Positions 6,486 through 47,075 of a stretch of 64,000 nt of DNA are shown piece by piece; within the stretch, counting starts at the first letter, position 1; each line of letters starts with the position of its first letter. A program made the position numbers and the translations under genes. The notes beneath the pieces were generated by a model, which was given only the letters and a program-made list of their open reading frames with translations, was not told where the DNA came from and did not search any database. Source of the DNA: Arenicola marina (taxonomy: Eukaryota > Annelida > Polychaeta > Arenicolidae); NCBI GenBank assembly GCA_964019135.1, contig CAXHSH010000416.1, positions 806,001-870,000 on the forward strand. The letters are read 5' to 3'.

Positions 6486-7126
6486 GAAAATGCACATCAG
6501 TAATAACTACCATTTGGTCTGGTTCTATTTCTCTATGAAAAGGTGGCTGACTGGCAGATGTTCCGGCAATCTGTAATAACACATAGTTCATTTCAATTGT
6601 CATCAAATCAAAACTGGCATGGTTGGATAGTTCAACAAAACCGCATCACGTTAAAATGTATGGGTTCAGGTGCAACTGTAGAACAGAGAAAATGCACATC
6701 AGTAATACCTACCATCTGGTCTGGTTCTGTTTCTCTAGGAAAAGGTGGCTGACTGGCAGATGTTCCGGCAATCTGTAATAACACATAGTTCATTTCAATT
6801 GTTATCAAATCAAGACTGGCATGGTTGGAGAGTTCAACAAAACCGCATCACGTTAAAATGTATGGGTTCAGGTGCAACTGTTGGACAGAGAAAATGCACA
6901 TCAGTAATACCTACCATCTGGTCTGGTTCTGTTTCTCTAGGAAAAGGTGGCTGACTGGCCGATGTTCCGGCAATCTGTAATAACACATAGTTCATTTCAA
7001 TTGTTATCAAATCAAGACTGGCATGGTTGGAGAGTTCAACAAAACCGCATCACGTTAAAATGTATGGGTTCAGGTGCAACTGTTGAACAGAGAAAATGCA
7101 CATCAGTAATACCTACCATCTGGTCT
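6486..7126. repeat. Tandem repeat, 202-bp unit, about three copies
   Basis: Three near-identical units begin at matching points 6543, 6745 and 6947 (spacing exactly 202 bp). The later two copies are the most alike. Each starts near AATGCACATCAGTAATA and contains a short open frame that is a shadow of the repeat. No protein similarity is seen. Confidence 0.9.
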
Positions 7127-7149
7127 GTATATATAAACCGGTGATGTCT

Positions 7150-12513: not shown

Positions 12514-13332
12514 ATGTTGTCGGTTTCACAACGCACGTCGCTTTTAACGCTCACTCATAAAGGCAACTCTCGTGGATTACTTACAAACTACAGACCAATC
12601 ACGCTTTCTAATGTTGATTATAAGATCCTGGCACAAGCGCTGGCCCGGCGTCTTAAATCAGTCATATCTAGTATTATAAGCCCAGATCAAACTGGATATA
12701 TACCAAAAGGGTTTATAGGTTGCAATGTCCGTATGATGCAAGACGTTATAGATTATGCAAATCGTAAACATGTCAGTGGTATTCTTCTATTTTTGGACTT
12801 CGAGAAAGCTTTTGACAGTTTAGAATGGGATTTTCTACACCAGTCGCCGAAAAAATTTGAGTTCAGAAAATCATTCATCCAATGGGTCCGACTGTTGTAT
12901 AAAGTTTCATCTGCGCGGGTCAAAAACAGCGGTCACTTTTCAAATCCTGTTAACTTGTCTCGCGGTATAAAGCAGGGCTGTCCACTCTCCGCGATGCTGT
13001 TCGTCATAGCTATTGAATTGCTGGCCATAAATTTAAAAAACAATAAAAGTATCAAGGTTCGAATCAGACAGCAAGAGCACGAGCTAAAGGTATCCCAATA
13101 TGCTGACGACTTGACACTACTCCTACAAAACACCGAACAAATTACCGAGGTGCTCGATGAATTAAATGAATTTGAAAAAGTGGCAGGACTAAAAGTAAAC
13201 CTGGCAAAAACCATGTGTATAAATGTCGGTCCCAACGGGAATAAAAAAGAGGTAACCACCCACGGTATAGCAATATTGGAAGAGCCTGTGAAGTGTCTCG
13301 GCGTGTATATCGGAAATGATAGTCCAGTTTAA
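12514..13332 (+). pseudogene. LINE reverse transcriptase fragment
   Basis: 272-codon open frame with the RT motifs in order: NYRPITLSN (motif 1), PDQTGYIPKGF (motif 2a), FLDFEKAFDSLEW (motif A), RGIKQGCPLSAMLF (motif B) and QYADDLTLLL (motif C, catalytic YADD). It belongs to the broken LINE at 8905-14937. Three shorter pieces at 13443-13790, 13892-14284 and 14402-14749 continue the C-terminal region in shifting frames. Confidence 0.85.
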
Positions 13333-21772: not shown

Positions 21773-22510
21773 CATCCCATCATCTGAACTATTGCCCCTC
21801 ACCTCCTATGATCGTGGGCGATATAGTTGAATCAATCGGTAGCACGCTCGCCAAGGGCGGACGTTTCTACCGACAGAACTATTGCCCCTTCTCCTCTGTC
21901 ACCGTGGGCGATATAGTTGAATCAATCGTTAGCACGCTCGCCAGGGGCGGACGTTTCTACCGACTGAACTATTATTGCCCCTTCCCCTCTGTCACCGTGG
22001 ACGATATAGTTGAATCAATCGGTAGCACGCTCGCCAGGGGCGGACGTTTCTACCGACTGAACTATTGCCCCTTCCTCTCTGTCACCGTGGGCGATATAGT
22101 TGAATCAATCGGTAGCACGCTCGCCAGGGGCGGACGTTTCTACCGACAGAACTATTGCCCCTTCTCCTCTGTCACCGTGGGCGATATAGTTGAATCAATC
22201 GGTAGCACGCTCGCCAGGGGCGGACGTTTATACCGACTGAACTATTATTGCCCCTTCCCCTCTGTCACCGTGGACGATATAGTTGAATCAATCGGTAGCA
22301 CGCTCGCCAGGGGCGGACGTTTCTACCGACTGAACTATTGCCCCTTCCTCCCTGTCACCGTGGGCGATATAGTTGAGTCATAATTTAGGACGCTCGACAG
22401 GGGCGGACCCTTCTGCAGAGTGATATCTTGCCCCCCCCCCCCCCCCCTCTCCTCCTTTCCTATCATCGTGGCCGATATAGTTGAGTCAATCGATAGGACG
22501 CTTGCCAAAG
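21773..22510. repeat. 90/93-bp minisatellite, about seven copies
   Basis: The unit starts GAACTATTGCCCC and includes GGCGATATAGTTGAATCAATC and a GCCAGGGGCGGACG block. Variant units carry a 3-bp insertion (CTATTATTGCC). Because 90 and 93 are multiples of three, the plus strand stays open for 236 codons as a 30/31-residue repeat. The last copy near 22420-22510 is degenerate. No splice sites or conserved domain support coding. Confidence 0.85.
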
Positions 22511-26415: not shown

Positions 26416-26427
26416 ATGACGACAACA
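26416..26427 (+). CDS. Predicted start exon, 4 codons
   Basis: ATG ACG ACA ACA followed by a strong donor GTATGT. It joins in phase 0 to the exon at 26800. A different, unseen first exon is possible because the coding part is so short. Confidence 0.4.
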
Positions 26428-29400
26428 GTATGTTCACAGTTTTTTTCATTTTGCACACATTTTACTCTACTATTATGTGTTGTCAAGCTACTTTTTTGAT
26501 AGACGATTTAAAAAAATCGAACGGGCACCGGAGAACGTTTCAAAGCGTATCAATATATTTAGAATCAGTACACCGGCGCAATATTCTGGCAGATAACCTT
26601 GCGTTCTCAGGTAAAACGTCTCTATAGCGCCTAATCGCCGAGCGATACATTTACATCAACATCCACGCGGCCATTGTTCTACACGCTGTGGAACCACACG
26701 AGGGCAAGGTTTGTTGTCAACGCTAACACTGGAATCCGGCTATTGCCTCACCCTATTGTTAATCCGTGTTTGACCAATTAATTATATGATCATTTGCAGC
26801 TTGGGCGGAAAAGAAGAAAAACAAAACTTTCAATAGAAGATCCCGATCAGGATGGATTTGAAGTTCTCTTCATAGATGAATTCAAAGGTGAGCTTGTTTT
26901 TTCTGTTCTTCCACTCAACCACCTAAAATTAGTAAGTGGTTGGAAGCAAATGAAATGCATCATAATATTCATATTGATATGTCAAGTGGTTAAAGCGTCC
27001 TGAATAAACAATCAACGAACCATGTAGCTGACACTAATTACGAGGTGACGTTGTCTAATTCTTCAGTATTATCACATCATAATACTATAGAGCAGCTTGC
27101 TTTTTAAAGAACACAATCGGAAGCATGTTTGATTATAAGGTTTAAACATTAAAGCTAATCACGGATCACATTATGTCTAGTATTTGCCCAAATTCTAGTT
27201 ACAGGCATTTGTAAGCAAGGAATAGATACAATTCGCACAAACGTTTATCAATTTATTTCAGGGTGTGGTGTCTTCACCACAAAAAGTTTTGCCAGGGGAG
27301 ACTTTCTACTTTTTTATAAAGGAGAATTAATCGACGAAGAGGTGGCTGAGAGGAGAATATCACGGAATGGAAATACTTTCCTATATTTCATCAAGCTGGG
27401 ACGAGTGACGAAATGGTAGATATTATTTGTCATGTTAGATGAACTATAAATGTATCTAGGGGTCGGGGTTGCGGGAATCCTTCTCTGGTGGCCCTCCCTT
27501 CAATCAAGTTGTGGACAATTGATTTCTGACTGAAGGCAATCGATCTCCGACTGATGGTTTCCTGTTTCCGGCCGCAAGCGGCGCACAGGGCACGGCTTGT
27601 AGATTGGTGGGCAATGTTATTTGAAATTTGTCATATGAAATGCGTTGTTTCATATCAAATCCCTATTTCCTGAAATCTGATTTGTGTAGCTTGATATTGC
27701 CTAATGACGCGATACTGAGACACCTTGGGCCGGAAGAGTTGGCCCATTTATTTTCGGACCTTTTGAGAATTTGTGGGTCTTGCGCCGGGATAGCTAGGCC
27801 CTTAACATCTTCGGGGTGCATGTTATTATGTAGATATTGTGTCAATAGTAATTACTCTTTTTTATTTTGTTACTTGGTGATATGTAGTACACTCTTATGG
27901 TATTGAATATATAAATCATGATGATATTGTATGTTTATTCCCTTACAGTGTTGACGCTACAAGCTCCAGTGGCTTCGGACGACTTGTTAATGACTCAACG
28001 AAGCCAAACTGCCGAATGAAAGTTCTAAATATACATGGGTCGATGCATTTAGGACTGGTTGCTATAGAGGATATCCCGCCAAACAACGAACTTGTGTATA
28101 ACTATGGTGGAGATGATATGCCATGGAGGAAGGTAAGTTGGTGACAGTTGGAATTGCAGTTACTGTAGTACATAAAAGGTTATCCTGCATAATATGTAAT
28201 ACAAGCAACTGATATTTCCCATGGAGTTATTCGTGAAAAGTACGTGTTTTTACATTTTAATAGTCGGTTTATATAAGTATATCACCTTTCTCTCTTGCAG
28301 AATTGCCAACGTGAAAGTTATACATGTCCAGGTTTATATATAGAAATTAAGAATTGTCGTTCGTTCTTTCACATTTTCCTTCTGAAAGTTTGGTTGTTCT
28401 GTTCACAAGGAGACCACACAATTTCCTTATCACAGTGCCTATTGCACTGGAACACACTTTCTGTCGTTGACATCCTTTATTCGTACCCTGAACGTTTTCA
28501 TTTGCTTCAGTAACTTCTTTTAATCATGTGACGTAGATGTATTGATTTTGTTAAAAACCATTTCTCGATTTTTCGATCACTTGGGCCGCTATTTGCGAAA
28601 GATGCATGTTCAGAGTAGAAACTTGCTGATCGTGCACCAAATAGCATATATTGTCCTTTGTATAGCCTCTAACATTATTTGAGCATTTATTGTTTGATTA
28701 TTATGCAGCGGGAGTGAAACGTCTGCACAATCTGCCTACAGTTTTGGGTGAGTTTTTTGTTCGGCATTAATTGTTTGGATCTTAATATTTTCATCATCGT
28801 GATATTTTCCCACGTACTTCATCCAACATTCTGCAAAATGTCCGTGGTTGGAGGGTGAAAATAAACGTGACTTCATGAGTACAAGTGATTCTGAATGTAA
28901 GTTGTCCGGTTTAAAGTTTAAGTATAACAAGTGATCTTTAAGCAGAAGTATTGGTCATGAGGAACAAATCACTCACCAAATAATCTGGATGGGTTAATGG
29001 TCGCATATGTATATATATCACCTTCAACTTGACAACACAAACGTAAGCCGTCATTCCATCTGCTTGATTCACAGATAGTACGGAGGATGACGCCCTGCGG
29101 GAGGTATGGTGTTCTTCATGCTGATGTAGTTACAATGAATCTTGTATGTTAGTACAATACTATTGTATATATTGAGTTGTTGTAAATTAACTTGATAATG
29201 AGAAAGTGATTAGGGTGTCAATGAATGCTGATAGTTTCATGGATAGCCAAAGACCAATGTTGTGTTTTGAAGATTAAGGCAATGACGCCAGAATTCTTAG
29301 AATGGGAGTCAGATTTTGCGGAAAACAAGTACCTGAATGACCTGGAAGAGGTAAGTGTCTACTTCGCCACGCAGGTGTCCACATTATTCGTCACCTTACT

Positions 29401-32400
29401 GCCACTTTATAGCAACAATGGCTATTACACTTTGTGTATTACACGCTGTGAAAATGACGAGTGGAATGTTCATCACAACGCGCGCAATCCTGCTCTATCA
29501 TAATTAACGTATGGTCTGATATTATATCAAGTAGATTCCCAAAACCAAGTGCAATTTGTTTCCTTTAGTTGGGCTTCCTGGGATATGCCTTGTATTAAAA
29601 TAGCAGAATGGACAGTAGGACTGCCTTCACCTTAAGGATCAGCATGCGGCTTTTAAATATTTCAATTGTGTATCAATCTGTATACAGCAGCTTCCTATGC
29701 ATCTAACTTTAACGTTATTAGAGCGATGCGCGTAAATTTGTTCTCTGTTCGGGAAACGTTACCCAGGAAAGTTGTCTTCACACTTTGAGAAGATTGCTAA
29801 AATAACATAACGTCTTTAGCGTTGCTAGAATACGTTACGTCCTAATACGTCCTAATAACGTTGCTGCAGTGTTTTTCGAAAACTTCGAGGAAGTGAAGGT
29901 CGGCAATGTGCCGGGTGGTTGTATTTTATAATGAAATCTCTTCTTCAGATAGTTGAAGACAGCACTGGCGAAAGTGATGAAAGTTTAAATGTCGATGACG
30001 TCGAAAAGTTGTACCCTGCTCTTTCAGGAAAGGTGACTGTCCATTTTCTTTTAGATATTACGATGTTGTGTCTAGGGCACTTTTGCAACACTTCGGCGCA
30101 AAAGCAAGCACTCCCAAAATTAACTAAATAATAACTTACTTTTGGCTCGGCAGTCAGTCGCAATGTACAGTACATGGCTTAAATATGCGACAGGCTACGA
30201 ATGACATTGCGGGAAGTTGTAATATATATGAAGGAACTGACTTGCCTTACATCTTTAGACACACGTTTCCGAAATATTAGGAATGACCCTCATGCTTTGA
30301 CTGCGTGCGCATCTAAGACCTACTGACCAATGCCGCATATGTTGTGATTTTACATTTATGCCATAGCTTTGCCCTGTAACTAACGACCAATCATTGGTGG
30401 TGGTTTCAGATGCTTGAGGAGGTCATTCCCGTCGAAATCCCAAACCGACTCGGTCCAGACCCAGTCGGTGACAGGCCGTGCCGGGGTCCAAATGGAGAGG
30501 TTAGTATTGATGTAGTCAAGGGGGCCTTCCGATAGCTCTCTAAAAGCTGACTGTAAAATTATATGAACTTTGCATGTTGGAATGGGGTATTCTTTTGTAT
30601 GTGACGCGTGCATTTGTTGATCTCAGCGAGTGCCATCTTGGAATTAAAATTACCATTGGGCTTGACTGATTTGGGGTTTGTATACATGAAATACATGCAC
30701 ATAACGCTGTGGGAAGTTATGTATACATATGAAGGACCTGACTTGCCTTACATCCTTATATACACGTTTCCGAAATATTAAGAATGACCCTCATGCTTTG
30801 ACTGCGTGTGCATCTAAGACCTACTGACCAATGCCGCATATGTTGTGATTTTACATTTATGCCATAGCTTTGCCCTGTAACTAACGACCAATGAATGGTG
30901 GTGGTTTCAGATGCTTGAGGAGGTAATTCCCGTCGAAATCCCAAACCGACTCGGTCCAGACCCAGTCGGTGACAGGCCGTGCCGGGGTCCAAACGAAGAG
31001 GTTAGTATTGATGTCGTCAAGGGGGCCTACCGATAGCTCTCTTAGAGCTGACTGTAAAATTATATGAACTTTGCATGTTGGAATGGGATATTCTTTTGTA
31101 TGTGACGCGCGCACTTGTTGATCTCAGCGAGTGCCATCTTGGAATTAAAATTACCATTGGGCTTGACTGATATGGGGTTTGTATACATGAAATACATGCA
31201 CATAACGCTGTGGGAAGTTATGTATACATATGAAGGACCTGAGTTGCCTTACAGCCTTATATACACGTTTCCGAAATATTAGGAATGACTCTCATGCTTT
31301 GACTGCGTGTGCATCTAAGACCTACTGACCAGTGCCGCATATGTTGTGATTTTACATTTATGCCATAGCTTTGCCCGGTAACTAACGACCAATCATTGGT
31401 GGGGGTTTCAGATGCTTGAGGAGGTAATTCCCGTCGAAATCCCAAACCGACTCGGTCCAGACCCAGTCGGTGACAGGCCGTGCCGGGGTCCAAATGGAGA
31501 GGTTAGTATTGATGTAGTGAAGGGGACCTTCCGATAGCTCTCTAAAAGCTGACTGTAAAATTATATGAACTTTGCATGTTGGAATGAGATATTCTTTTGT
31601 ATGTGAGGGGTGCATTTGATGATCTCAGCGAGTGCAATCTTGGAATTAAAATTACCATTGGGCTTGACTGATATGGGGTTTGTATACATGAAGTACATGC
31701 ACATAACGCTGTGGGAAGTTATGTATACATATGAAGGACCTGACTTGCCTTACATCCTTATATACACGTTTCCGAAATATTAAGAATGACCCTCATGCTT
31801 TGACTGCGTGTGCATCTAAGACCTACTGACCAATGCCGCATATGTTGTGATTTTACATTTATGCCATAGCTTTGCCCTGTAACTAACGACCAATGAATGG
31901 TGGTGGTTTCAGATGCTTGAGGAGGTAATTCCCGTCGAAATCCCAAACCGACTCGGTCCAGACCCAGTCGGTGACAGGCCGTGCCGGGGTCCAAACGAAG
32001 AGGTTAGTATTGATGTAGTCAAGGGGGCCTACCGATAGCTCTCTTAGAGCTGACTGTAAAATTATATGAACTTTGCATGTTGGAATGGGATATTCTTTTG
32101 TATGTGACACGCGCACTTGTTGATCTCAGCGAGTGCAATCTTGGAATTAAAATTACCATTGGGCTTGACTGATATGGGGTTTGTATACATGAAGTACATG
32201 CACATAACGCTGTGGGAAGTTATGTATACATATAAAGGACCTGACTTGCCTTACAGCCTTATATACACGTTTCCGAAATATTAGGAATGACCCTCATGCT
32301 TTGACTGCGTGCGCATCTAAGACCTACTGACCAATGCCGCATATGTTGTGATTTCACATCTATGCCATAGCTTTGCCCTGTAACTAACGACCAATGAATG

Positions 32401-35400
32401 GTGGTGGTTTCAGATGCTTAAGGAGGTCATTTCCGTCGAAATCCCAAACCGACTCGGTCCAGACCCTGTGGGAAGTTATGTATACATATGAAGGACCTGA
32501 GTTGCTAGCAATACAGCCTTATATACACGTTTCCGAAATATTAGGAATGACCCTCATGCTTTGACTGCGTGTGCATCTGAGACCTACTGACCAATGCCGC
32601 ATATGTTGTGATTTTTCATTTATGCCATAGCTTTGACCTGTAACTAACGACCAATCATTGGTGGGGGTTTCAGATGCTTGAGGAGGTAATTCCCGTCGAA
32701 ATCCCAAACCGACTCGGTCCAGACCCAGTCGGTGACAGGCCGTGCCGGGGTCCAAATGGAGAGGTTAGTATTGATGTAGTCAAGGGGACCTTCCGATAGC
32801 TCTCTAAAAGCTGACTGTAAAATTATATGAACTTTGAATCTTGAAATGGGATATTCTTTTGTATGTGACGCGTGCATTTGTTGATCTCAGCGAGTGCCAT
32901 CTTGGAATTAAAATTACCATTGGGCTTGACTGATATGGGGTTTGTATACATGAAGTACATGCACATAACGCTGTGGGAAGTTATGTATACATATAAAGGA
33001 CCTGACTTGCCTTACATCCTTATATACACGTTTCCGAAATATTAGGAATGACCCTCATGCTTTGACTGCGTGCGCATGTAAGACCTACTGACCAATGCCG
33101 CATATGTTGTGATTTTACATTTATGCCATAGCTTTGCCCTGTAACTAACGACCAATCATTGGTGGTGGTTTCAGATGCTTGAGGAGGTAATTCCCGTCGA
33201 AATCCCAAACCGACTCGGTCCAGACCCAGTCGGTGACAGGCCGTGCCGGGGTCCAAATGGAGAGGTTAGTATTGATGTAGTCAAGGGGTCCTTCCGATAG
33301 CTCTCTAAAAGCTGACTTTAAAATTATATGAACTTTGAATCTTGGAATAAGATATTCCTATGTATGTGACGCGTGCATTTGTTGATCTCAGCGAGTGCAA
33401 TCTTGGAATTAAAATTACCATTGGGCTTGACTGATATAGGGTTTGTATACATGAAATACATGCACATAACGCTGTGGGAAGTTATGTATACATATAAAGG
33501 ACCTGACTTGCCTTACATCCTTATATACACGTTTCCGAAATATTAGGAATGACCTTCATGCTTTGACTGCGTGTGCATCTAAGACCTACTGACCAATGTC
33601 GCATATGTTGTGATTTCACATCTATGCCATAGCTTTGCCCTGTAACTAACGACCAATGAATGGTGGTGGTTTCAGATGCTGAAGGAGGTCATTTCCGTCG
33701 AAATCCCAAACCGACTCGGTCCAGACCCAGTCGGTGACAGGCCGTGCCTGGGTCCAAATGGAGAGGTTAGTATTGATGTAGTGAAGGGGACCTTCCGATA
33801 GCTCTCTAAAAGCTGACTTTAAAATTATATGAACTTTGAATCTTTAAATGGGATATTCTTTTGTATGTGACGCGTGCATTTGTTGATCTCAGTGAGTGCC
33901 ATCTTGGAATTAAAATTACCATTGGGCTTGACTGATATGGGGTTTGTATACATGAAGTACATGCACATAACGCTGTGGGAAGTTATGTATACATATGAAG
34001 GACCTGACTTGCCTTACATCCTTATATACACGTTTCCGAAATATTAGGAATGACCTTCATGCTTTGACTGCGTGTGCATCTAAGACCTACTGACCAATGC
34101 CGCATATGTTGTGATTTTACATCTATGCCATAGCTTTGCCCTGTAACTAACGACGAATGAATGGTGGTGGTTTCAGATGCTTAAGGAGGTAATTCCCGTC
34201 GAAATCCCAAACCGACTCGGTCCAGACCCAGTCGGTGACAGGCCGTGCCGGGGTCCAAATGAAGAGGTTAGTATTGATGTAGTCAAGGGGGCCTTCCGAT
34301 AGCTCTCTTAGAGCTGACTGTAAAATTATATGAACTTTGCATGTTGAAATGGGATATCCTTTTGTATGTGACCCGTGCATTTGTTGATCTCAGCGAGTGC
34401 CATCTTGGAATTAAAATTACCATTGGGCTTGACTGATATGGGGTTTGCATACATGAAGTACATGCACATAACGCTGTGGGAAGTTATGTATACATATGAA
34501 GGACCTGACTTGCCTTACATCCTTATATACACGTTTCCGAAATATTAAGAATGACCCTCATGCTTTGACTGCGTGTGCATCTAAGACCTACTGACCAGTG
34601 CCGCATATGTTGTGATTTTACATTTATGCCATAGCTTTGCCCTGTAACTAACGGCCAATCATTGGTGGGGGGGTCAGATGCTTGAGGAGGTCATTCCCGT
34701 CGAAATCCCAAACCGACTCGGTCCAGACCCAGTCGGTGACAGGCTGTGCCGGGGTCCAAATGAAGAGGTTAGTATTGATGCAGTCAAGAGGGCCTTCCGA
34801 TAGCTCTCTAAAAGCTGACTGTAAAATTATATGAACTTTGCATGTTGGAATGAGATATTCTTTTGTATGTGAGGGGTGCATTTGATGATCTCAGCGAGTG
34901 CAATCTTGGAATTAAAATTACCATTGGGCTTGACTGATATGGGGTTTGTATACATGAAATACATGCACATAACGCTGTGGGAAGTTATGTATACATATGA
35001 AGGACCTGACTTGCCTTACAGCCTTATATACACGTTTCCGAAATATTAGGAATGACCCTCATGCTTTGACTGCGTGTGCATCTAAGACCTACTGACCAAT
35101 GCCGCATATGTTGTGATTTTACATTTATGCCATAGCTTTGCCCTGTAACTAACGACCAATCATTGGTGGGAGTTTCAGATGTTTGAGGAGGTAATTCCCG
35201 TCGAAATCCCCAACCGACTCGGTCCAGACCCAGTCGGTGACAGGCCGTGCCGGGGTCCAAATGGAGAGGTTAGTATTGATGTAGTGAAGGGGACCTTCCG
35301 ATAGCTCTCTAAAAGCTGACTTTAAAATTATATGAACTTTGAATCTTGAAATGGGATATTCTTTTGTATGTGACGCGTGCATTTGTTGATCTCAGCGAGT

Positions 35401-38400
35401 GCCATATTGGAATTAAAATTACCATTGGGCTTGACTGATATGGGGTTTGTATACATGAAGTACATGCACATAACGCTGTGGGAAGTTATGTATACATATG
35501 AAGGACCTGACTTGCCTTACATCCTTATATACACGTTTCCGAAATATTAGGAATGACCCTCATGCTTTGACTGCGTGTGCATCTAAGACCTACTGACCAA
35601 TGCCGCATATGTTGTGATTTCACATCTATGCCATAGCTTTGCCCTGTAACTAACGACGAATGAATGGTGGTGGTTTCAGATGCTTAAGGAGGTAATTCCC
35701 GTCGAAATCCCAAACGGACTCGGTCCAGACCCAGTCGGTGACAGGCTGTGCCGGGGTCCAAATGAAGAGGTTAGTATTGATGTAGTCAAGAGGGCCTTCC
35801 GATAGCTCTCTAAAAGCTGACTGTAAAATTATATGAAATTGCATGTTGGAATGAGATATTCTTTTGTATGTGAGGGGTGCATTTGATGATCTCAGCGAGT
35901 GCAATCTTGGAATTTAAGATTACCATTGGGCTTGACTGATATGGGGTTTGTATACATGAAGTACATGCACATAACGCTGTGGGAAGTTATGTATACATAT
36001 AAAGGACCTGACTTGCCTTACATCCTTATATACACGTTTCCGAAATATTAGGAATGACCCTCATGCTTTGACTGCGTGCGCATCTAAGACCTACTGACCA
36101 ATGCCGCATATGTTGTGATTTCACATCTATGCCATAGCTTTGCCCTGTAACTAACGACCAATGAATGGTGGTGGTTTCAGATGCTTAAGGAGGTAATTCC
36201 CGTCGAAATCCCAAACGGACTCGGTCCAGACCCAGTCGGTGACAGGCAGTGCCGGGGTCCAAATGAAGAGGTTAGTATTGATGTAGTCAAGAGGGCCTTC
36301 CGATAGCTCTCTAAAAGCTGACTGTAAAATTATATGAAATTGCATGTTGGAATGAGATATTCTTTTGTATGTGAGGGGTGCATTTGATGATCTCAGCGAG
36401 AGCAATCTTGGAATTTAAGATTACCATTGGGCTTGACTGATATGGGGTTTGTATACATGAAGTACATGCACATAACGCTGTGGGAAGTTATGTATACATA
36501 TAAAGGACCTGACTTGCCTTACATCCTTATATACACGTTTCCGAAATATTAGGAATGACCCTCATGCTTTGACTGCGTGCGCATCTAAGACCTACTGACC
36601 AATGCCGCATATGTTGTGATTTCACATCTATGCCATAGCTTTGCCCTGTAACTAACGACCAATGAATGGTGGTGGTTTCAGAAGCTTAAGGAGGTCATTT
36701 CCGTCGAAATCCCAAACCGACTCGGCCCAGACCCAGTCGGTGACAGGCCGTGTCGGGGTCCAAATGAAGAGGTTAGTATTGATGTAGTCAAGGGGGCCTA
36801 CCGATAGCTCTCTTAGAGCTGACTGTAAAATTATATGAACTTTGCATGTTGAAATGGGATATCCTTTTGTATGTGACCCGTGCATTTGTTGATCTCAGCG
36901 AGTGCCATCTTTGAATTAAAATTACCATTGGGCTTGACTGATATGGGGTTTGTATACATGAAGTACATGCACATAACGCTGTGGGAAGTTGTGTATACAT
37001 ATGAAGGACCTGACTTGCCTTACATCCTTATATACACGTTTCCGAAATATTAGGAATGACCTTCATGCTTTGACTGCGTGTGCATCGAAGACCTACTGAC
37101 CAGTGCCGCATATGTTGTGATTTTACATTTATGCCATAGCTTTGCCCTGTAAAACTAACTGCCAATCATTGGTGGGGGTTTCAGATGCTTGAGGTGGTCA
37201 TTCCTGTCGCAATCCCAAACCGACTCGGTCCAGACCCAGTCGGTGACAGGCCGTGCCGGGGTCCAAATGGAGAGGTTAGTATTGATGTAGTGAAGGGGAC
37301 CTTCCGATAGCTCTCTAAAAGCTGACTTTAAAATTATATGAACTTTGAATCTTGAAATGGGATATTCTTTTGTATGTGACGCGTGCATTTGTTGATCTCA
37401 GCGAGTGCCATATTGGAATTAAAATTACCATTGGGCTTGACTGATATGGGGTTTATATACATGAAGTACATGCACATAACGCTGTGGGAAGTTATGTATA
37501 CATATGAAGGACCTGACTTGCCTTACATCCTTATATACACGTTTCCGAAATATTAGGAATGACCCTCATGCTTTGACTGCGTGCGAATCTAAAACCTACT
37601 GACCAATGCCGCATATGTTGTGATTTTACATTTATGCCATAGCTTTGCCCTGTAACTAACGACCAATCATTGGTGGGGGTTTCAGATGCTTGAGGAGGTA
37701 ATTCCCGTCGAAATCCCAAACCGAGTCGGTCAAGACCCAGTCGGTGACAGGCCGTGCCGGGGTCCAAATGAAGAGGTTAGTATTGATGTAGTCAAGGGGG
37801 CCTTCCGATTGCTCTCTAAAAGCTGACTTTAAAATTATATGAACTTTGAATCTTGGAATGGGATATTCCTATGTATGTGACGCGTGCATTTGTTGATCTC
37901 AGCGAGTGCAATCTTGGAATTAAAATTACCATTGGGCTTGACTGATATGGGGTTTGTATACATGAAGTACATGCACATAACGCTGTGGGAAGTTATGTTC
38001 ACATATAAAGGACCTGACTTGCCTAACATCCTTATATACACGTTTCCGAAATATTAAGAATGACCCTCATGCTTTGACTGCGTGTGCATCTAAGACCTAC
38101 TGACCAATGCCGCATATGTTGTGATTTTACATTTATGCCATAGCTTTGCCCTGTAACTAACGGCCAATCATTGGTGGGGGTTTCAGATGCTTGAGGAGGT
38201 CATTCCCGTCGAAATCCCAAACCGACTCGGTCCAGACTCAGTCGGTGACAGGCCGTGCCGGGGTCCAAATGAAGAGGTTAGTATTGATGTAGTCAAGGGG
38301 GCCTTCCGATAGCACTCTTAGAGCTGACTGTAAAATTATATGAACTTTGCATGTTGAAATGGGATATCCTTTTGTATGTGAGGCGTGCATTTGTTGATCT

Positions 38401-41400
38401 CAGCGAGTGCACTCTTGGAATTAAAATTACCATTGGGCTTGACTGATATGGGGTTTGTATACATGAAATACATGCACATAACGCTGTGGGAAGTTATGTA
38501 TACATATAAAGGACCTGACTTGCCTTACATCCTTATATACACGTTTCCGAAATATTAGGAATGACCCTTATGCTTTGACTGCGTGCGCATCTAAGACCTA
38601 CTGACCAATGCCGCATATGTTGTGATTTCACATCTATGCCATAGCTTTGCCCTGTAACTAACGACCAATGAATGGTGGTGGTTTCAGATGCTTAAGGAGG
38701 TCATTTCCGTCGAAATTCCAAACCGACTCGGCCCAGACCCAGTCGGTGACAGGCCGTGTCGGGGTCCAAATGAAGAGGTTAGTATTGATGTAGTCAAGGG
38801 GGCCTACCGATAGCTCTCTTAGAGCTGACTGTAAAATTATATGAACTTTGCATGTTGAAATGGGATATCCTTTTGTATGTGACCCGTGCATTTGTTGATC
38901 TCAGCGAGTGCCATCTTGGAATTAAAATTACCATTGGGCTTGACTGATATGGGGTTTGTATACATGAAGTACATGCACATAACGCTGTGGGAAGTTATGT
39001 ATACATATGAAGGACCTGACTTGCCTTACATCCTTATATACACGTTTCCGAAATACTAGGAATGACCCTCATGCTTTGACTGCGTGTGCATCTAAGACCT
39101 ACTGATCAATGCCGCAGATGCCTATTCTAATGGGCTATTGTTGAGCTACTGCGGTGGCGGGAGGGGGGGGGGGGGTACGCATTTATTGAATACATTGCAT
39201 AGAGTACCGTTCTTTATGTCAGGATAAATAACACACACTGGTACTGAGTTTAAACTCATTGTGTATATTAACTATCCAGGGAAAGTCATTGGATCCCGAA
39301 ACAGGCTTATTTGTGACGGATGACAGCAACACTTGGTCTAAGGTGAGCGGCAAGCTTCTTTTGAATTGACTCTAGAAAATGACATTATGAAAGTGCATAA
39401 AGCGTTTTTTCCCAGTGCCGAGTCAATAGGAATTGATAAGGGGTTAAAAGTTTGGACTGGCTACCTCTTCCTTGCACTGTTTGTACTCTCTGACCAGAGA
39501 AAACATTTAATGGGACATTGGAGCATATTACTTGATGGAACAGGGGAAGTAAGCGATATAGGCGTGATTGATGGCTTATAATGCCCAGATATTTCTCATC
39601 TGTGGTAATCATGCTATGCTTTACTGATGACAGGAGTCTAATGGCGAGATGAGCGACTCGTCCGATCTGCGACTCATGCATCAGAAGCGATTCCGAGGTG
39701 ATTAGTCATTACAAATGAATATGATAGGTACCGTTGAGTGAGGCGCATTAATGTAAATCACGTGACATATTGGTAGTCTGTCCTGGTTCTATATATACAT
39801 TGTTACCCTTTGTTGTCCCGTGATGCGTGAAACATCTTTTTATTTGTGTGATGAACATAATGCTTGGCCTACCAGAGTACAAATAATTGCATCATCGAAC
39901 TTCGAACTGTATATATTTCAAACTATTTGTTTGTGTGACTTATCGAAACGTCCATTTCAGCTTCAGGTCAAAGAGCAGTGCGGGATAGCAACGGAAAACG
40001 AGTGTGCAATAAAGCTCTATGCTGCCTCTTTTGCAAGAAGATGTATCGGCATAGAATATCAGAACATCTGGAAAAAGCCCATGGTGATGAAGCAAGTGTT
40101 GCAATGGCCTTAGCTCTTCCCCGCAAAAGCCGCGAGAGAAAACTTGCTTTCCAGAAGATTAACTACAAGGGTAATTTTGCCAACAACGTCAATGTCCTAA
40201 ATGGCGAACCAGGCAAAATTATAGTCGTCCGAAGGTCAAGCAAGTCGGCGGACTATAAAGGACAATATCTGCCGTGCCCAGCATGCCTGGGATTCTTCAT
40301 GAGTACAGAGTTGTGGCGGCATTACAAGACATGTCCATGTAAAGATTTAGGACGAAACGATGACCACACCGGTGGTGCAGGCATACAAGCTCAAGCTCAA
40401 ATATTGTTGGAATCTGCCGTTCTACCTGAGACTAATTCAGATAAAACGGAACTGAAGCCTTTATTGCAAAACATGCACAAAGATGAAGTCTTCCTCGGCC
40501 TTGAGAATGATATCCTGATACTGCGTTTCGGCCTAGTTCTGTTGAAGAAACTTGGAATGCAGCGAAAGAATGATGTTGCTCAAAGAATGCGTCAGCTAAG
40601 TCGGCTGAAACTGCAACTGGGAGCGAGTCAACTTGACGATGTCATAAGTGGTTCTAAATACGATGCTGTCGTTGAAGCTACCAAGAAGTTGTGCAACTTC
40701 AAGTCGTCACCCGATGATATATCTGTATTTGAGCGCCCTGCCCTGGCTTTACGGCTAGGACACAATTTAAAGAAAGTTGGTCAGGTCAAGTATGGTATGT
40801 GCTTGCGGTCAGATGATGACGTTGGACTACGACGATCAGAGACTTTCATGACATTGCTCAAACAGGAATGGGCCGACCAGATTAGTTCAATAGCGCTTGC
40901 CAGCCTGGCCACTAACAAATTTAACAAACCACAATTACTCCCAATCACAGACGATCTGAAGAAACTGAAAACCTATGTGGATACTGAAATCAATCGCCTG
41001 ACACCCTTACTGGATCGTGAACCGGCGACTAGCACATGGCGATCACTATGTGAAGTGGTTATGGCAAAAACAGTGTTGTTTAACAAACGGCGTGGCGGAG
41101 AAGTCCAACAGATACGCGTCGATGCCTTCACGTCAAGAGTGAAACACAAGGAACACATGAATCAAGAGATTTTGGATTCCATGACGGATCTTGAAAAAAC
41201 TTTGATTGACAGGTAAGGTCCATATGCACGAAATGATAGTGAAATGTTACACTCATCACTAAGACACATTTTAATGTTTTGGTTTTATCAACATTACATA
41301 CATGAGTAGTGGTATCTGGGACTTGGGTTGTATATTCAGGAGGCGTTAACGAGGTATGTTCATATCGCGTCGATTTGAAGAAGGAAGATTAGAAGTGGGC

Positions 41401-44400
41401 TTTGCCCCTGTGAAAACGCTCTACTCTTTTTTTATTCTCGAGACATACAGACGCGGAAACATCGATGCGTGAAAACTAACCAACGAGTCGTTAGACTTCC
41501 TCAATAAGCTATGCTATTAGGACGGCCGTCGCTTTGGGTAGGCCTCTACGGCTTTAGCAAAGATACATTTAGCCGCAACCATTTTGTATGTGCTTCATAT
41601 ATTGTATGTGGGAGATCAAAATCGCCCTCGCATTCTCGCGTTCTCGCCCCTGTGATTTCGCATTCTCGCGATCTCGCTCTCGCTGTATCGCAATTTCACT
41701 CTCGCTGTGTCGCCCTCGCGATCTCACCCTCGCGATCTCGATTAAGCGCAGCGCACAGAGCCATAGTCCAGCGCCCAGAGCTATAGCCAGGTGCCCAGAC
41801 CTATAACCCGGAGCCCGGACCCATAGCTCGGAGCCAGGAACCACGGTTTGGAACCAGTATCCATAAACCGGCGTCGGGAAGCGAGATAGCGAGTTTCACA
41901 AATATGCCACTATACAAACGTGTACATCAGACAGTTCAAAATATTCACCAGGTAGCGATATTTTTCGAACATCCCTATATTTGAGCCTTGCCCGCGGCGA
42001 CTGTCGCATAACCTGTTTAAGGAGTGTATACGGGAATAAACGTCTATTGGCCTGCATAACCTTATTACATGTCTTGTTACAAATGACTGTTTGAATACGA
42101 GATAATTAACCTCATGCATGTGGATCCGGTTAAACTACGTGAGGATTGATTTCGCACTGTTTTGTATTCTTCTATGACTTCTTTAAGAGACTTTTGTTTC
42201 AGGCTGGAACTGGTGGAAGTCAGAGGGAAAAAGAATAAAAATGTACCAACTCTTCTGACACAAGACATGGTGCGCGCAATGGAAGTCTTGGTAAATCATA
42301 GGACAGAATGCGGAATACGTGATGGCAATAAGTATCTCTTTGCCAGTCAAGGCGATGGTCAGCTACAAATGTGGAAGACACTGAATGCCGTTGCAACGGA
42401 AGCCGGATGCACACACCCAGAGCATATTTCGTCTTCGAGATTGAGGAAGTATATTGCCACGGTTGCCCAGGTAGGCTTATATCTAATAATCTATATCTTA
42501 TAAACGATGATACTGATAATTAAGCTTGTGAAATCTGTTCATTATATGAGACTTTATCAGTGTTCTGCTGCACTTAATATCTTTCACGACTTGTCTAATA
42601 ATTCCTCACTCCATCCTTGATTGACTGCTTCTTTTATGACTTTTATTTAACATGACGAAATATACATAGCTGTTTTGCGACTTTAATATTAAACGCACGG
42701 CCAATTTCCTATACCAATTCGGGTCTCTCCTCCATTTAGATCTTAGATTTAGACAATTCAGAGTTGTCATGGCTGGCGAACCACTTGGCGCACGACCTGA
42801 GGACGCACGAAGACTTCTATTGGAAACATGATTCCACTCTTGAACTGGCCAAAGTTAGCAAACTACTGCTGCTTGCCGAAGCCGGCAACGTATCACGATT
42901 TGCTGGGAAGAAACTGAAAGAGATAGGACTTGATGGTAAATTCAAAGATGCCTGGGAAAAGCAACAAAGGCATGCATACATGGCATACATGGCTAATTTC
43001 AGAGGAAGAATACCAGCGTGCATTTGCTCATGCTGCAGGATTGCATACGTGGAGTTTTCCTAGCGTGTTGTAATGTGCTCCTTTACTTATTCAACGTCAC
43101 TTTCTAGTTAATGACTGAATATATAGGTAAACTAATGGACCTTTATGCAAACATCAGAACTCTTTTTATTTATTAGCGACTTGTATTTCTTTTTTTAGAC
43201 ATCGGACTTACGGAGGATAGCAACGTAAACGACCAAGATCTTCACATGGAAGATTTTATTGATCAGGAATTGGCAGGTACTATGATTTGTTTTTCTATAT
43301 TAATAACGCATCGGTTTCTTATAGCACCGAAGTCCTCATGTCTCTATTTCCTACGGTATGGATGTAAAAGTTTGTTTTCTATACACTGGTGATACTAGTT
43401 TACTGTACTGATAGTATTATAATGATCCAATCTTGATGATCTTTTCTGCTGACACATAATCATTACTTGTATGGTGAAATGCCTGCCAGGTAAGTTAAAA
43501 CTGAATTGTGAGGTTTTGCTGCAACCAAAATTGGTTGATTGTTCAGCTAGGACATTCCTGTCTGCTTCACCCTAAGATAGTTAAAATACTAGTGCAGGTG
43601 ATGTTTTATAAGAAGAAAGTGTTTGTGACTAAATGGGGTAGTATTGACAAAAGCATGGTCACGTTATTTGGCAGAAAACGCTGTGCTTGATACAGACGAA
43701 GTCCGACGTCCAAACACCAGCGACAAAGGTTAGTGCCCCTCACTGACATGCTATGCGTCATGCGTCAGTAATGATTGGTCAACTATTAGTAATAACATAT
43801 TTAGGCAAAGATTATATATATGATATGTGTATGTAGTCGGAAAGCCTAAAAATACAGACCACCGTCTCTTTTTCGCTTAATGGCAATTTGTTGTATCCGG
43901 ATTATACGTGGGCACTATTATGTATTGGTTTGCGTGCAATACCTATATGTTTGTCGTGTGCTATGCGTAGATAGTGTCCTTGGCGTACTTGAAGCCCTCC
44001 CGCTCCTCAGTCCTTTGTGAATGGTGAAACGATTATTTGGAGTTTAATTACGTTTAATTATGGCACTCTCATGGTGAAGCTCATGCAAATATTGGATTGT
44101 ATAATGGCCGTCATTAATGAATTGTATTGCAGAAGTTGTTCCACGTGTTCGAACTAGTCTTCAGCGTCCCAGATCCGTCATGGTGGAAAATAGCAGTGAA
44201 GAAGGTTCGTGTAATATCGGAGACCGCCCGCTCATTTCATGCTTATTTCAACAGGCATCCATACGTTCTCCCATTTTTGTCTATGCAATATTAATTTACA
44301 TGGAAAATAACTTCCCAAAATTTCTCTGCAAGGACATTTTGATTATATTATATTAACAATAGCTCTCCTGTCTCTGGTGGCACATTTCATGATATGCAGC

Positions 44401-47075
44401 CAGGTTTCTGTCGAAACAACTGCCATTATCGATGGTCTCTACCTTCCCAGGCGACATAATGCTTCGCTAATCACAGAAGGTTTTATCGTTACCGCATCAA
44501 TTAACGTTGGCGAGATTAGTACAATCATGGATACCACTCTTATATTCTATGATGGTATTGCAGAAGTTGTTCCACGTGTGCGAACGTTCCACGTGTGCGA
44601 ACTAGTCGTCAACGCCCCAGACCGGTCATGGAAAGTAGCAGTGAAGAAGGTTCGTGTAATATGGGAGACCGCCCGCTCAAACCTTGTTCATTTCGATAGG
44701 CATGCATACGTTCTGACAATGTGTTTCTGTGGCCTTTCTTTCGGTGTCCTTTGTTGTGGAATGCTGAATCCTATTTTGAACTAGTGATGCGTCATGGATA
44801 AAACGGTCAATTGTTCTCCATGTTTTTTTAGAAGGGGTTTCCCCCGAGACCATGCGTCGCCCTACTAAAACCCGCAAGCTTGACACAACAGTCAGTAGCA
44901 GCGAAGAAGGTTCGTGTCCAATCCAAGTTTGCTATCATCTCTACTTTTTCAAGCAGTAGGTACAACAGTGTGCCATCATTTTTAACATGTTCAGTGGTAG
45001 GTCCGATGGTATGCCAACATTTCTAACGTGTACAGAGGAAGGCCAGTTTGTGTGCCATCATTTCTAACATGTACAGAGGAAGGCCAGATAGTGTGCCATC
45101 ATTTCTAACACGTTCAGTGGTAGGTGCGATAGTTGGCCATCATTTCTAACATGTTCAGTGGTAGGTCCGCTGGTATGCCAGCATTTCTAACATGTACAGA
45201 GGAAGGCCAGTTAGTGTGCCATCATTTCTAACACGTTCAGTGGTAGGCCCGTTAGTGTGCCATCATTTCTAACATGTTCAGTGGTAGGCCCGATAGTGTG
45301 CCATCATTTCTTACATGTTCAGTGTTAATTATCATAGTGCACCATCATTTATATCAGTTTCCGTGTCAGGGCCGGTAATGGGGCATCATTTCTAACACGT
45401 TCAGTGGTAGGTGCGATAGTTGGCTATCATTTCTAACATGTTGAGTGGTAGGCCCGATAGTGTACGTGCCATCATTTCTAACATGTTCAGTGGTAGGCCC
45501 GATAGTGTGCCATCATTTCTTACAGATTCAGTGCTAAGTCCGATGGTGTGCCATCATTTCTTACATGGTAGACATGCATAGGTTCTGACAATGTGTTTTT
45601 GTGGCCTTTCTTTGTGTGTCATTTGTTGTGAAATGCTGAATCCTATATTGAACTAGTGTTGGGTCATGGATAAAATGGTCAATTGTTCTCCATGTTTTTA
45701 GAAGGCGTTTCCCGCGAGACCATGCGTCGCCCTGCTAAAACTCGCAAGCTTGACACAACAGAAAGTAGCAGCGAAGAAGGTTCGTGTCCAATCCAAGTTT
45801 GCTATCATCTCTACTATTTTCAGCAGTAGGTGCAATAGTGTGCCATCATTTTTAACATGTTCAGTATTAAGTATCGTAGTGCACCATCGTTTGTGTCAGT
45901 TGCAGTATCAGGGCTGTTAATGGGACATCATTTATTACATGTTCAGTGTTAGGTCCGATGGTGTGCCATCATTTCTTGCATGTTCGGCGTTAGGTCCGAT
46001 GGTGTGCCATCATTTCTTTCATCCTCAGTGGTAGGCCCGATAGTGTGCCATCATTTCTTTTGTGTTCAGTGGAAGGTCCGATAGCCATTAGTGTGCCATC
46101 ATGTATTTAATGTTCAGTGGTAGGTTTGATGGCGTGCCATCATTTCTAACATGTTCAGTGGTAGGTCCGATGGTGTGCTAGCATTTCTAACATGTACAGA
46201 GGAAGGCCCGATAGTGTGCCATCATATTTTACATGTGGAGAAGAAGGCCCGATGGTGTGCCATCATTTTTAATAGGCTCATTGGTACGTTCGACAGTGTG
46301 CCATCATGTTGAGTGGTAGATCTAATAGTGTGCAATCAATGCTGACATTTTCAACGCGAATCACTGATGTGCAGACAATAACGACTTCGGAACTCTCTAC
46401 AGATCAGTCGGTAGTCGATTTCTCAGAAATCGGATCTAAAGCTCGGTATCGAGAGATTGTTCCCCTGATCGTTATTAAATAGTATAATAGTTTTTATGAT
46501 TACATTTTGAACAGGGATGGCCGGAGGCATCAATTCACCTCGTAAGTTCTAGGTCCTTGTTGTTGCCTTGCTAAGCTACTTGAATTTAAGCTTATAAATA
46601 ATGCAGTTATTTTGTTTTGGACAGAGATGAACACGTATTGGAAGGGCACAAAACAACGTCGAAAATACAGTAAGTACTTATCTAACATATGTATGTTTTG
46701 CTTACAGTGTACCATACATAACTTTTCTCCTGCGAGTTAACTACGCAATTTCCCTGTTGTTTTATTTCCAATTATCCTAGAACTATTCTATACAGTACCA
46801 TTTCCTCGTTGCCATGTGCTGTATGATAATTTACAAAATACAATTATATATCTCGCACGTTGATAATGTGGGTCTCTTCGACAGATAAAAAACGCAGATG
46901 GACAAAGGAAGAAAATGCCGTCCTCCTCTCGACGTTTGAAACACACATAAGACGCAAGGTCATGCCTTCTGGTCTGCAGATTCAAAACGTAATTAAGACT
47001 AGTTTAAAGGAAAGAACAGTTCCCGTTGTTAGGGCTAAGTTAAACAACATTATCTTGGGCAAGTCTCGAATCTAA
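26416..47075 (+). CDS. KMT5A-like SET, zinc-finger and tyrosine-recombinase fusion gene
   Basis: Gene model assembled from splice sites with matching phase. Exons: 26416-26427, 26800-26887, 27262-27415, 27949-28132, 28301-28331, 28709-28747, 29075-29103, 29273-29350, 29949-30032, the 90-bp exon array (30410-38777), 39280-39342, 39634-39697, 39961-41212, 42203-42470, 42740-42935, 43199-43276, 43675-43728, 44133-44204, 44832-44909, 45702-45779, 46515-46541, 46625-46669 and 46885-47075 (stop). With all 17 array exons and without the frame-breaking 44564-44649 exon it encodes about 1564 residues; without the array, about 1054. The start ATG has A at -3 and an in-frame TGA just upstream. Domain order is SET, acidic linker, repeat, two zinc fingers, tyrosine recombinase, acidic linker, Myb/SANT-like. 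Similar multi-copy proteins occur in fish (from memory). Function is unknown; a chromatin-linked role is inferred. Confidence 0.75.
26800..28132 (+). CDS. SET domain exons (histone-lysine methyltransferase-like)
   Basis: Three exons (26800-26887, 27262-27415, 27949-28132) give a SET domain closest to KMT5A (SET8/PR-Set7). The order is FKGCGVFTTKSFARGDFLLF (KMT5A has a KGKGV..TK.F.RGDF pattern), FLYFIKLG, CVDATSSSGFGRLVNDS and ELVYNYG. The residues that bind S-adenosylmethionine and shape the active site in KMT5A are the NHS and ELxYDYG motifs. Here they read NDS and ELVYNYG, so the histidine is Asp and the tyrosine after Y-x is kept. Activity is therefore uncertain. KMT5A proper methylates H4K20. 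Confidence 0.85.
28301..30032 (+). CDS. Short linker exons (acidic)
   Basis: Five small exons (28301-28331, 28709-28747, 29075-29103, 29273-29350, 29949-30032) link SET to the repeat array. Phases run 0-1, 1-1, 1-0, 0-0, 0-0 without a break. Content includes DSTEDDALRE, EFLEWESDFAENKYLNDLEE and IVEDSTGESDESLNVDDVEK. It is acidic and probably disordered. The donors GTGAGT, GTAAGT and GTGACT are good. The acceptor at 29272 has a poor pyrimidine tract. Confidence 0.55.
30410..38777 (+). CDS. Array of 17 intact 90-bp phase-0 exons
   Basis: Each copy is 30 codons, follows TTTCAG (copy 34678 has GGGTCAG) and ends at GAG|GTTAGT. A branch-point-like CTAAC sits about 26 bases upstream of every acceptor I checked. 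The encoded repeat begins ML(E/K)EVI(P/S)VEIPNRLGP and ends DRPCRGPN(G/E)E: acidic, proline-rich, one cysteine per repeat, probably disordered. All 17 have no stop and no indel. The copy at 32414 is cut after about 54 bp and lacks a donor. The first intact copy spans 30410-30499 and the last 38688-38777. The exons on either side are also phase 0, so any number can be included without a frameshift. Whether they are spliced in together, alternatively or not at all is unknown. Confidence 0.7.
32414..32468 (+). pseudogene. Truncated copy of the array exon
   Basis: The exon keeps its acceptor and first 18 codons or so, then jumps at GACCC to the start of the next unit (GTGGGAAGTTATG). A 241-bp deletion removed its donor. 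Spacing to the next copy is 260 bp instead of 501. Confidence 0.8.
39280..39697 (+). CDS. Linker exons after the array
   Basis: 39280-39342 (GKSLDPETGLFVTDDSNTWS, phase 0-0) and 39634-39697 (ESNGEMSDSSDLRLMHQKRF, phase 0-1). Both have clean AG and GT sites and join in phase to the large exon at 39961. Confidence 0.6.
39961..41212 (+). CDS. Large exon: two zinc fingers and start of recombinase
   Basis: 1252-bp exon. The first finger is CLFCKKMYRHRISEHLEKAH (C2H2 style). The second, C2HC style, is around LPCPACLGFFMSTELWRHYK followed by TCPC. A helical region follows (ENDILILRFGLVLLKKLGMQ, then RLGHNLKKVG), matching the N-terminal SAM-like part of tyrosine recombinases. At 41080-41100 the first catalytic arginine box reads LFNKRRGGEVQQI. 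The donor GTAAGG at 41213 leaves two bases that join to 42203. Confidence 0.8.
41550..41890. repeat. Intronic CTCGC-rich and 21-bp-like repeats
   Basis: 41620-41740 is a run of CTCGC/TCTCGCGAT motifs. 41750-41880 is a looser repeat around GCCCAGASCYATAGCC. It lies in the intron between 41212 and 42203. A related CTCGC/GAGAACG patch lies at 25890-25990. Confidence 0.55.
42203..42935 (+). CDS. Tyrosine recombinase catalytic core exons
   Basis: Exon 42203-42470 carries the lysine box RGKKNKNVPTLL and the box-II arginine in SSSRLRKYIATVAQ. Exon 42740-42935 carries LANHLAHDLRTHEDFYW, the histidine and catalytic tyrosine box. With the arginine at 41090 this gives R-K-(S)xxR-H-Y; only the box-II histidine is replaced (serine). 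This pattern fits Crypton/phage-integrase-type YR domains, several of which are domesticated in animals (KIAA1958, QRICH1, ZMYM2-4). In active enzymes the tyrosine attacks DNA. Here activity is possible but unproven. Confidence 0.75.
43199..43728 (+). CDS. Acidic linker exons
   Basis: 43199-43276 encodes DIGLTEDSNVNDQDLHMEDF and onward. 43675-43728 encodes ENAVLDTDEVRRPNTSDK. Both are phase 1-1 and joinable. The second resembles the duplicated exons that follow (VRRP..TS). Confidence 0.55.
44133..45779 (+). CDS. Family of duplicated phase-1 exons
   Basis: Related exons at 44133-44204, 44564-44649, 44832-44909 and 45702-45779 all end in a GAAGAAG|GTTCGT-type donor and begin after a CAG or TAG with AAG. 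Content is basic then Ser/Glu-rich, such as RRPTKTRKLDTTVSSSEE. Three keep phase 1-1. The copy at 44564 holds a 17-bp direct duplication (GTTCCACGTGTGCGAAC) and a 3-bp loss, is 86 bp long and would shift the frame, so it must be skipped or is dead. The last two copies are nearly identical and sit in a larger duplicated block. Confidence 0.5.
44564..44649 (+). pseudogene. Frame-breaking duplicate exon
   Basis: A copy of exon 44133-44204 with intact-looking splice sites but 14 bp net longer. The total coding length of the gene model is divisible by three only without it. Confidence 0.55.
44940..46350. repeat. Intronic 41-bp minisatellite in two blocks
   Basis: The unit is close to GTGTGCCATCATTTCTAAC followed by ATGTTCAGTGGTAGGYCCGAT. 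Block one is 44940-45570, block two 45820-46350. The blocks are separated by a copy of the exon at 45702. Exon plus flank at 44768-44960 and 45640-45860 are similar, so a unit of about 870 bp (exon plus minisatellite) was duplicated. Confidence 0.85.
46374..46486. mobile_element. Possible small foldback element in an intron
   Basis: The arms AATAACGA and TCTCT near 46378-46400 recur inverted near 46455-46483. A centre CGATTTCTCAGAAATCG forms a perfect 7-bp stem. No target duplication was confirmed. Confidence 0.35.
46515..47075 (+). CDS. C-terminal exons with Myb/SANT-like domain
   Basis: 46515-46541 and 46625-46669 are small phase 1-1 exons (GMAGGINSP; MNTYWKGTKQRRKY). The last exon, 46885-47075, encodes KKRRWTKEENAVLLSTFETH, then a second helix with IQNVIKTS and a third, VPVVRAKLNNIILGKSRI, then TAA. 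The W-T-x-E-E start and three-helix spacing fit a Myb/SANT-like DNA-binding fold. Fish homologues of the SET/recombinase family end in a similar domain (from memory). Confidence 0.65.

Follow-up and report, generated by a model that had tools for sequence, protein, structure and literature searches.

Descriptions of tandem exon arrays usually deal with single genes. In human LPA the kringle IV type 2 (KIV-2) unit contains exons and introns, and the kringle is a folded domain. KIV-2 is described as a variable number tandem repeat (VNTR) with 5.6-kb units, for which more than 40 protein isoforms are reported (PMC6314250, PMC11201333). In Schistosoma mansoni, a 27-bp exon and its flanking introns form genomic repeats of approximately 1 kb in the SmPoMuc genes, with up to 20 repeats per gene; the transcripts vary in repeat number, and the authors conclude that selection maintains the differences between the exons (PMC2576457). 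A SET methyltransferase joined to a mariner-family transposase is known as SETMAR or Metnase (PMC4593633, PMC8704517, PMC6715855), and animal genes with tyrosine-recombinase-derived domains are represented by the Crypton elements and the domesticated DUF3504 genes, which have lost the catalytic tyrosine (PMC3212892). Here we describe an array of 501-bp units, each with one complete 90-bp exon, inside a predicted gene of the polychaete annelid Arenicola marina that combines a KMT5A-like SET domain with a tyrosine-recombinase-like domain. The window, i.e. the whole stretch of DNA that was analysed, comprises 64,000 nucleotides (assembly GCA_964019135.1, contig CAXHSH010000416.1, positions 806,001 to 870,000 of the forward strand), and all coordinates below refer to it.

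The locus resembles SmPoMuc in that one small exon with flanking intron is repeated tandemly inside a gene, and it resembles LPA KIV-2 as an intragenic coding copy-number array that would alter protein length by whole modules. Unlike SmPoMuc, where the proteins are parasite mucins, 27 bp per unit are coding and selection is described, the gene in the window is a SET-recombinase gene with 90 coding bp per unit and no detectable selection within the array. With SETMAR it would share the fusion of a SET methyltransferase to a transposition-type enzyme domain; it differs in having a KMT5A-like SET domain, a tyrosine-recombinase-like domain and a repeat array between them. No description of a SET-tyrosine-recombinase protein, or of arrays in one, was present in the titles and abstract openings among the matches listed in a literature search outside which most subscription journals lie, and no literature joining "tyrosine recombinase" with "KMT5A" was found. 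In the available main text of the Crypton paper (PMC3212892), neither "SET domain" nor "methyltransferase" occurs. The array is thus of the kind known from SmPoMuc and LPA KIV-2, here in a SET-recombinase family in which, judged from sequence, such repeats recur.

The exon array and its splice signals

A sequence-only reading of the window had proposed that 17 tandem copies of a complete exon lie inside one SET/recombinase gene. We reproduced the 17 intact copies and the 501-bp period, from which a single unit deviates with 503 bp. The limits proposed for the array, 30410..38777, hold for the intact exons; the repeated DNA reaches further, from 30208 to 39120, and thus starts and ends inside introns, at unit-intron positions 209 and 343, respectively. 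The array consists of the following features:

30208..39120, + strand: complete array of 501-bp units (90-bp exon and 411-bp intron each), delimited by local alignment to the unit consensus
30410, 30911, 31412, 31913, 32674, 33175, 33676, 34177, 34678, + strand: starts of intact exon copies 1 to 9
35179, 35680, 36181, 36682, 37185, 37686, 38187, 38688, + strand: starts of intact exon copies 10 to 17
30410..30499, + strand: first of the 17 intact exon copies (30 codons, phase 0-0)
32414..32673, + strand: truncated 18th unit, 260 bp, with the acceptor and approximately the first 52 bp of the exon retained and the remaining exon and the donor deleted
34678..34767, + strand: intact copy whose acceptor scores lowest (GGTCAG, -3.0 bits)
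35680..36681, + strand: closest pair of units in the array, adjacent and 0.4% apart
38688..38777, + strand: last intact exon copy

All 17 intact copies have 30 codons in phase 0-0 and are free of stops and indels, and the exons flanking the array (29949-30032 and 39280-39342) are likewise phase 0, in line with what had been proposed. Since each unit thus brings one phase-0 exon and approximately 411 bp of intron, whole units can be gained, lost or skipped without damage to the frame. In the truncated copy, read-through would meet a stop after 25 codons. According to our hand gene model, each unit is a whole exon with flanking intron and all units belong to one gene, which places the locus among the intragenic tandem exon arrays of the SmPoMuc and LPA KIV-2 kind. 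That this is one SET/recombinase-like gene is supported by the hand model, the Pfam match to SET, a weak match to PF00589 and the alignment to fish proteins.

The units differ from each other by 0.4-7.4%. The closest pair is adjacent and differs by only 0.4%, and duplication therefore went on until recently. The residue differences noted earlier (E/K, P/S, G/E) were found again: among the 17 copies, 6 have K in place of E, 3 have S in place of P and 7 have G in place of E. Together the copies encode 13 distinct peptides. The unit is rich in proline, glycine and acidic residues, and its consensus is free of Ser and Thr.

The splice signals of the earlier description were also recovered. The donor GTTAGTAT is present in 17/17 intact copies, the acceptor AG in 17/17 and TTTCAG in 16/17 (the exception is the copy at 34678), and CTAAC precedes the acceptor in 18/18 copies, the truncated one included. 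Splice-site matrices were derived from 16 further exons of the gene, all modelled by hand. By this measure the array donors reach 9.7 bits, more than 11 of the 16 other donors. The array acceptors reach 2.3-4.0 bits, except for -3.0 at 34678, and those of the other exons range from 0.0 to 10.1 bits. As a chance control we shuffled the dinucleotides of one unit; the real exon served to set the thresholds, at 2.2 bits for the acceptor (a value reached by 16/17 copies) and at 9.6 bits for the donor. An open exon of 3n length with plus-strand signals that good occurred in 5 of 1,000 shuffles, and in 6 of 1,000 when the acceptor threshold was lowered to -3 bits. Strong donors together with weaker acceptors would suit variable inclusion of the copies.

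Linker repeats in fish relatives

To find relatives, the recombinase region of one related fish protein was used as query; 7,990 candidates were scored and the best 120 of 1,051 proteins taken. After addition of proteins from two further searches, 129 relatives were analysed and their domains located with phmmer. Of these, 55 combine a SET segment (partial in a few) with a zinc-finger and a recombinase segment, 70 have no SET and 4 are incomplete. Based on gene names from the record listings, the 55 proteins were collapsed to 42 genes.

Tandem repeats in the linker between SET and the zinc finger were found in 36/55 SET-class proteins, corresponding to 27/42 genes and 22/34 species. Among these 27 genes, 23 have approximately three or more copies and 4 approximately two; a medaka protein has approximately 15. 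The same detection gave repeats in 0/275 residue-shuffled linkers, in the recombinase core of 0/42 genes, and in the C-terminal tail of 2/42 genes (3/56 proteins when the window is counted). In the 70 relatives without SET, repeats were located on the N-side in 15, in the core in none and in the tail in 4. The periods range from 18 to 47 residues, 35-36 being commonest, and one period detected at 70 equals two units of 35. In 20 arrays examined, unit identity is 93-100% in 15 and 65-89% in the other 5. The search relied on the recombinase region, so the repeats were not selected for, but an array is present in the query protein too. No close annotated relative with the window repeat came up when the window linker and five repeat copies were used as query: one distant fish protein was obtained from the 7,993 candidates scored, those with most words in common, which does not show absence.

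Several relatives differ in unit number. Isoform records of this kind are computer-predicted, and nine such records of Brienomyrus LOC125717126 contain 1, 2, 3, 3, 4, 4, 5, 5 and 5 whole units. By eye, these units fit one fixed order, and the sets of distinguishable units differ between records. A Rhinichthys protein pair with different gene numbers and on different contigs is identical at 1,153/1,153 aligned residues and differs by one 36-residue unit, which is suggestive of copy-number variation. In a Chanodichthys pair, located on contigs of 61.7 and 73.1 Mb, 821/821 residues agree after the array, which has 6 units in one protein and 5 in the other. Each of the two pairs may consist of alleles, of recent duplicates or of copies that have transposed.

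As a separate observation, the isoform records P0022 and P0023 of Carassius gibelio LOC127987297 are distinguished by an 11-residue repeat (DASLQSQTPVD) that is nested within the unit, and therefore the repeats seem to amplify at two levels.

Explanation of the array and rival readings

We consider it fairly probable (about 0.72) that the array is a tandem exon VNTR in one gene, giving a length-variable linker. All steps from the DNA to splicing, protein and function, translation of the array in A. marina included, are ones we infer. Units would multiply or disappear by unequal exchange or gene conversion between the near-identical introns, and the symmetric phase would make every exchange product readable. 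Some or all copies may be spliced into mRNA, with variable inclusion through the strong donors and weaker acceptors, and the truncated copy would probably be skipped. The putative product is a KMT5A-like methyltransferase with a recombinase-like, perhaps DNA-binding, domain. The joining linker would be flexible and rich in proline, glycine and acidic residues, and its array part could span 0 to 510 residues. Many fish relatives have the same linker expanded by other sequences, so the trait that changes is probably less the exact sequence than the length or multivalency, and over evolutionary time the linker appears to have repeatedly become longer and shorter. In this uncharacterised protein family, linker repeats appear to be formed time after time: the linker is the same, the sequences differ, and the cases include many fishes as well as the more distant genome of the window.

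Several observations weigh against this explanation. The array acceptors are poor in pyrimidines (5-8/16, compared to 8-14/16 in 16 other hand-modelled exons), and one of them is at -3 bits. Direct joining of 30032 to 39280 also preserves the frame. No array was detected in 15 of the 42 fish genes, and that the fish units are separate exons is suggested by the whole-unit steps between isoforms in protein records. When the window unit was compared to 20 fish units, 4/20 shuffle tests gave P <= 0.05, the lowest being 0.02, and none would survive correction; homology of the window unit with the fish units was not established by these 20 tests. Among the fish units themselves, 74/190 pairs exceed all 20 shuffles. 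Further, the array in the window starts 86 residues after the SET match, beyond five small exons, and in 24/27 fish genes it starts at most 16 residues from it. The lack of clear unit similarity and the different array position imply that the recurring element is the linker, and not one recognisable ancestral repeat.

The array itself yields no signal of selection. Mean diversity is 0.049 in the exon copies and 0.046 in the intron copies, which thus resemble each other in exon and intron as expected of this kind of array, and the exon is mid-ranked among all 90-column windows of the unit. The absence of stops is expected by chance (P = 0.59), and the three intron indel events in approximately 411 columns imply only about 0.7 expected in the exon, so that the intactness of the copies, which had been taken as a sign of function, lost its weight. 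The proposed exon-versus-intron substitution check was equally without signal: the exon copies show 22 changes (14 nonsynonymous, 8 synonymous), 25% synonymous changes would be expected from the intron spectrum (P = 0.16), and with a pN/pS of 0.55 the synonymous excess is not significant. Purifying selection as proof of coding is thus not detectable in the comparison of exon and intron copies, and selection on the repeats is not demonstrated. With exon and intron equally diverse, either the youth of the copies or their homogenisation keeps selection from being visible. It is the structure of the units and the comparison with relatives that argue for real exons.

The equal divergence of exon and intron copies also fits an intronic satellite with an exon-like block, in which case the mature mRNA would skip the whole array; the preserved frame after skipping and the weak acceptors point the same way. 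We nevertheless regard this as unlikely, since such an exon occurs in only 5/1000 shuffled units, the donors are invariant in 17/17 copies and the protein records of relatives carry repeats in the same linker. A choice between copies instead of a change in length, with splicing picking variant units (E/K, P/S, G/E) as in clusters of mutually exclusive exons, would account for the 13 distinct peptides and for the fish isoform records using different sets of distinguishable units. It seems improbable to us, because a mean identity of 91% in the window and of 93-100% in 15/20 fish arrays leaves little to choose from, and isoform records hold several units at once, so the units are not mutually exclusive. 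Finally, assembly is difficult where tandem repeats are long and near-identical, and in the same window 63378-63995 repeats 58905-59522 at 617/618 bases, so a wrong copy number due to collapse or artificial expansion has to be considered. However, with units 0.4-7.4% apart and only one pair below 2%, most units are distinguishable, and such an error is the least probable of these alternatives.

If the array is indeed a tandem exon VNTR, linker length in a putative chromatin enzyme offers a natural experiment, in which species with 1 to 17 units could be compared. Gene models and assemblies of the SET-recombinase family may in turn misstate copy number. A more far-reaching idea, which we consider unlikely, is that the SET-recombinase genes form a fast-evolving family that is mobile or was so until recently. 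An exon-array linker of variable copy number would tether the histone methyltransferase to a DNA-binding domain of the recombinase type, and linker length (reach or valency) would be under recurrent selection. Germ-line chromatin or a conflict with transposable elements could, for example, be the setting of such selection, and the near-identical fish proteins on different contigs with 5 and 6 units would then be snapshots of linker change. The layout would be PRDM9-like, with an array that determines the reach instead of DNA specificity.

Gene model, recombinase-like part and neighbouring features

The exons were picked by eye (AG/GT, phase and similarity to relatives), from the ATG at 26416 to the stop at 47075. 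In this model all phases join and the frame is open for 1,540 codons including the 17 copies, with the stop at the end; the model omits the truncated unit as well as a C-terminal exon copy that is frame-shifted. Besides the array, the model contains:

26416-26427, 26800-26887, 27262-27415, 27949-28132 (26416..28132), + strand: proposed start codon and KMT5A-like SET exons (Pfam SET, PDB KMT5A, hand model; the start exon is the least certain)
28301-28331, 28709-28747, 29075-29103, 29273-29350, 29949-30032 (28301..30032), + strand: five small linker exons before the array, phases join
39280-39342, 39634-39697 (39280..39697), + strand: two linker exons after the array, phases join
39961-41212, 42203-42470, 42740-42935 (39961..42935), + strand: zinc-finger-like segment and tyrosine-recombinase-like core (weak PF00589, alignment to fish relatives, predicted fold of a fish relative resembling Xer)
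43199..45779, + strand: C-terminal linker exons, including duplicated exons ending in SSEE
44133-44204, 44832-44909, 45702-45779, + strand: three in-frame copies of the exon ending in SSEE
46885..47075, + strand: last exon, with the stop codon and a tryptophan-containing motif that by eye is similar to the C-terminus in fish relatives

The SET domain was matched by Pfam SET at 9.4e-16, and its nearest solved relative in the PDB is KMT5A (2.2e-21), the best other enzyme being NSD3 (9.5e-17).

The zinc-finger-like segment and the recombinase-like core align with the fish proteins, the recombinase part with 31-38% identity to 13 of the 14 sequences compared and 27% to one. The exon 42204-42470 alone matched PF00589 (Phage_integrase) with 3.6e-05 and 24.0 bits, below the cut-off of 27.1. 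No integrase family was among the Pfam matches of the spliced 941-residue protein (SET and one weak unrelated family were), nor was there an integrase match in Pfam for the fish relatives P0001 and P0046. A profile of 27 relatives gave a single PDB match for the recombinase part with E 0.96, which is not meaningful. In a Foldseek search with the predicted fold of a fish relative (mean pLDDT 64), the top nine matches were all chains of Xer tyrosine recombinases (TM 0.29-0.40 by target length), the best with E 3.7e-3 and none at or below 0.001. One scan of viral contigs for relatives of the recombinase part produced 31 pattern matches, none of which was confirmed.

Catalytic positions were assigned by eye, on the basis of the recombinase family motifs. 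The window retains both R, the beta K, the third-box H and the Y; the His of HxxR is replaced by Ser, and this position is Thr in 55/55 fish SET proteins. Of 126 sequences including the window, 98 keep the beta K, the second R, the third-box H and the Y together. The full catalytic set R-H-R-Y, as named in PMC3212892, is therefore not present in the window. Unlike the DUF3504 genes described there, the gene in the window and 102/125 aligned relatives keep the catalytic tyrosine. The later domain may be called recombinase-like, its activity being uncertain.

Some features accompany the C-terminal part of the gene. The duplicated exons at 44133-45779 are a second set in the same gene, in the C-terminal linker, and a fourth copy of the SSEE exon, at approximately 44564-44649, is frame-shifted by a 17-bp internal duplication. 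A 41-bp minisatellite at 44886-46378 (approximately 15 and 12 copies) lies between the C-terminal exons.

Elsewhere in the window, mobile-element-like open reading frames (ORFs) are located on both sides of the SET-recombinase gene, namely a reverse-transcriptase ORF at 12514-13332 (PF00078, 3.1e-35) and a PIF1-like helicase ORF at 55794-56573 (PF05970, 6e-17). A HECT/G2E3-like reading of 3387-3743 found no Pfam match and was dropped; a study that places kmt5a and g2e3 among the genes of a candidate sex region in a sea cucumber (PMC9128100) was for that reason set aside. The two copies of the direct duplication (58905-59522 and 63378-63995) are approximately 4.5 kb apart, overlap minisatellite fields and reach the window end. 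At 21784-22408, about seven copies of a repeat of approximately 90 bp coincide with a plus-strand frame that is open for about 200 codons and has a repeat of about 30 residues, and at 6486-7127 a 202-bp repeat is present in 3.2 copies with 97% matches.

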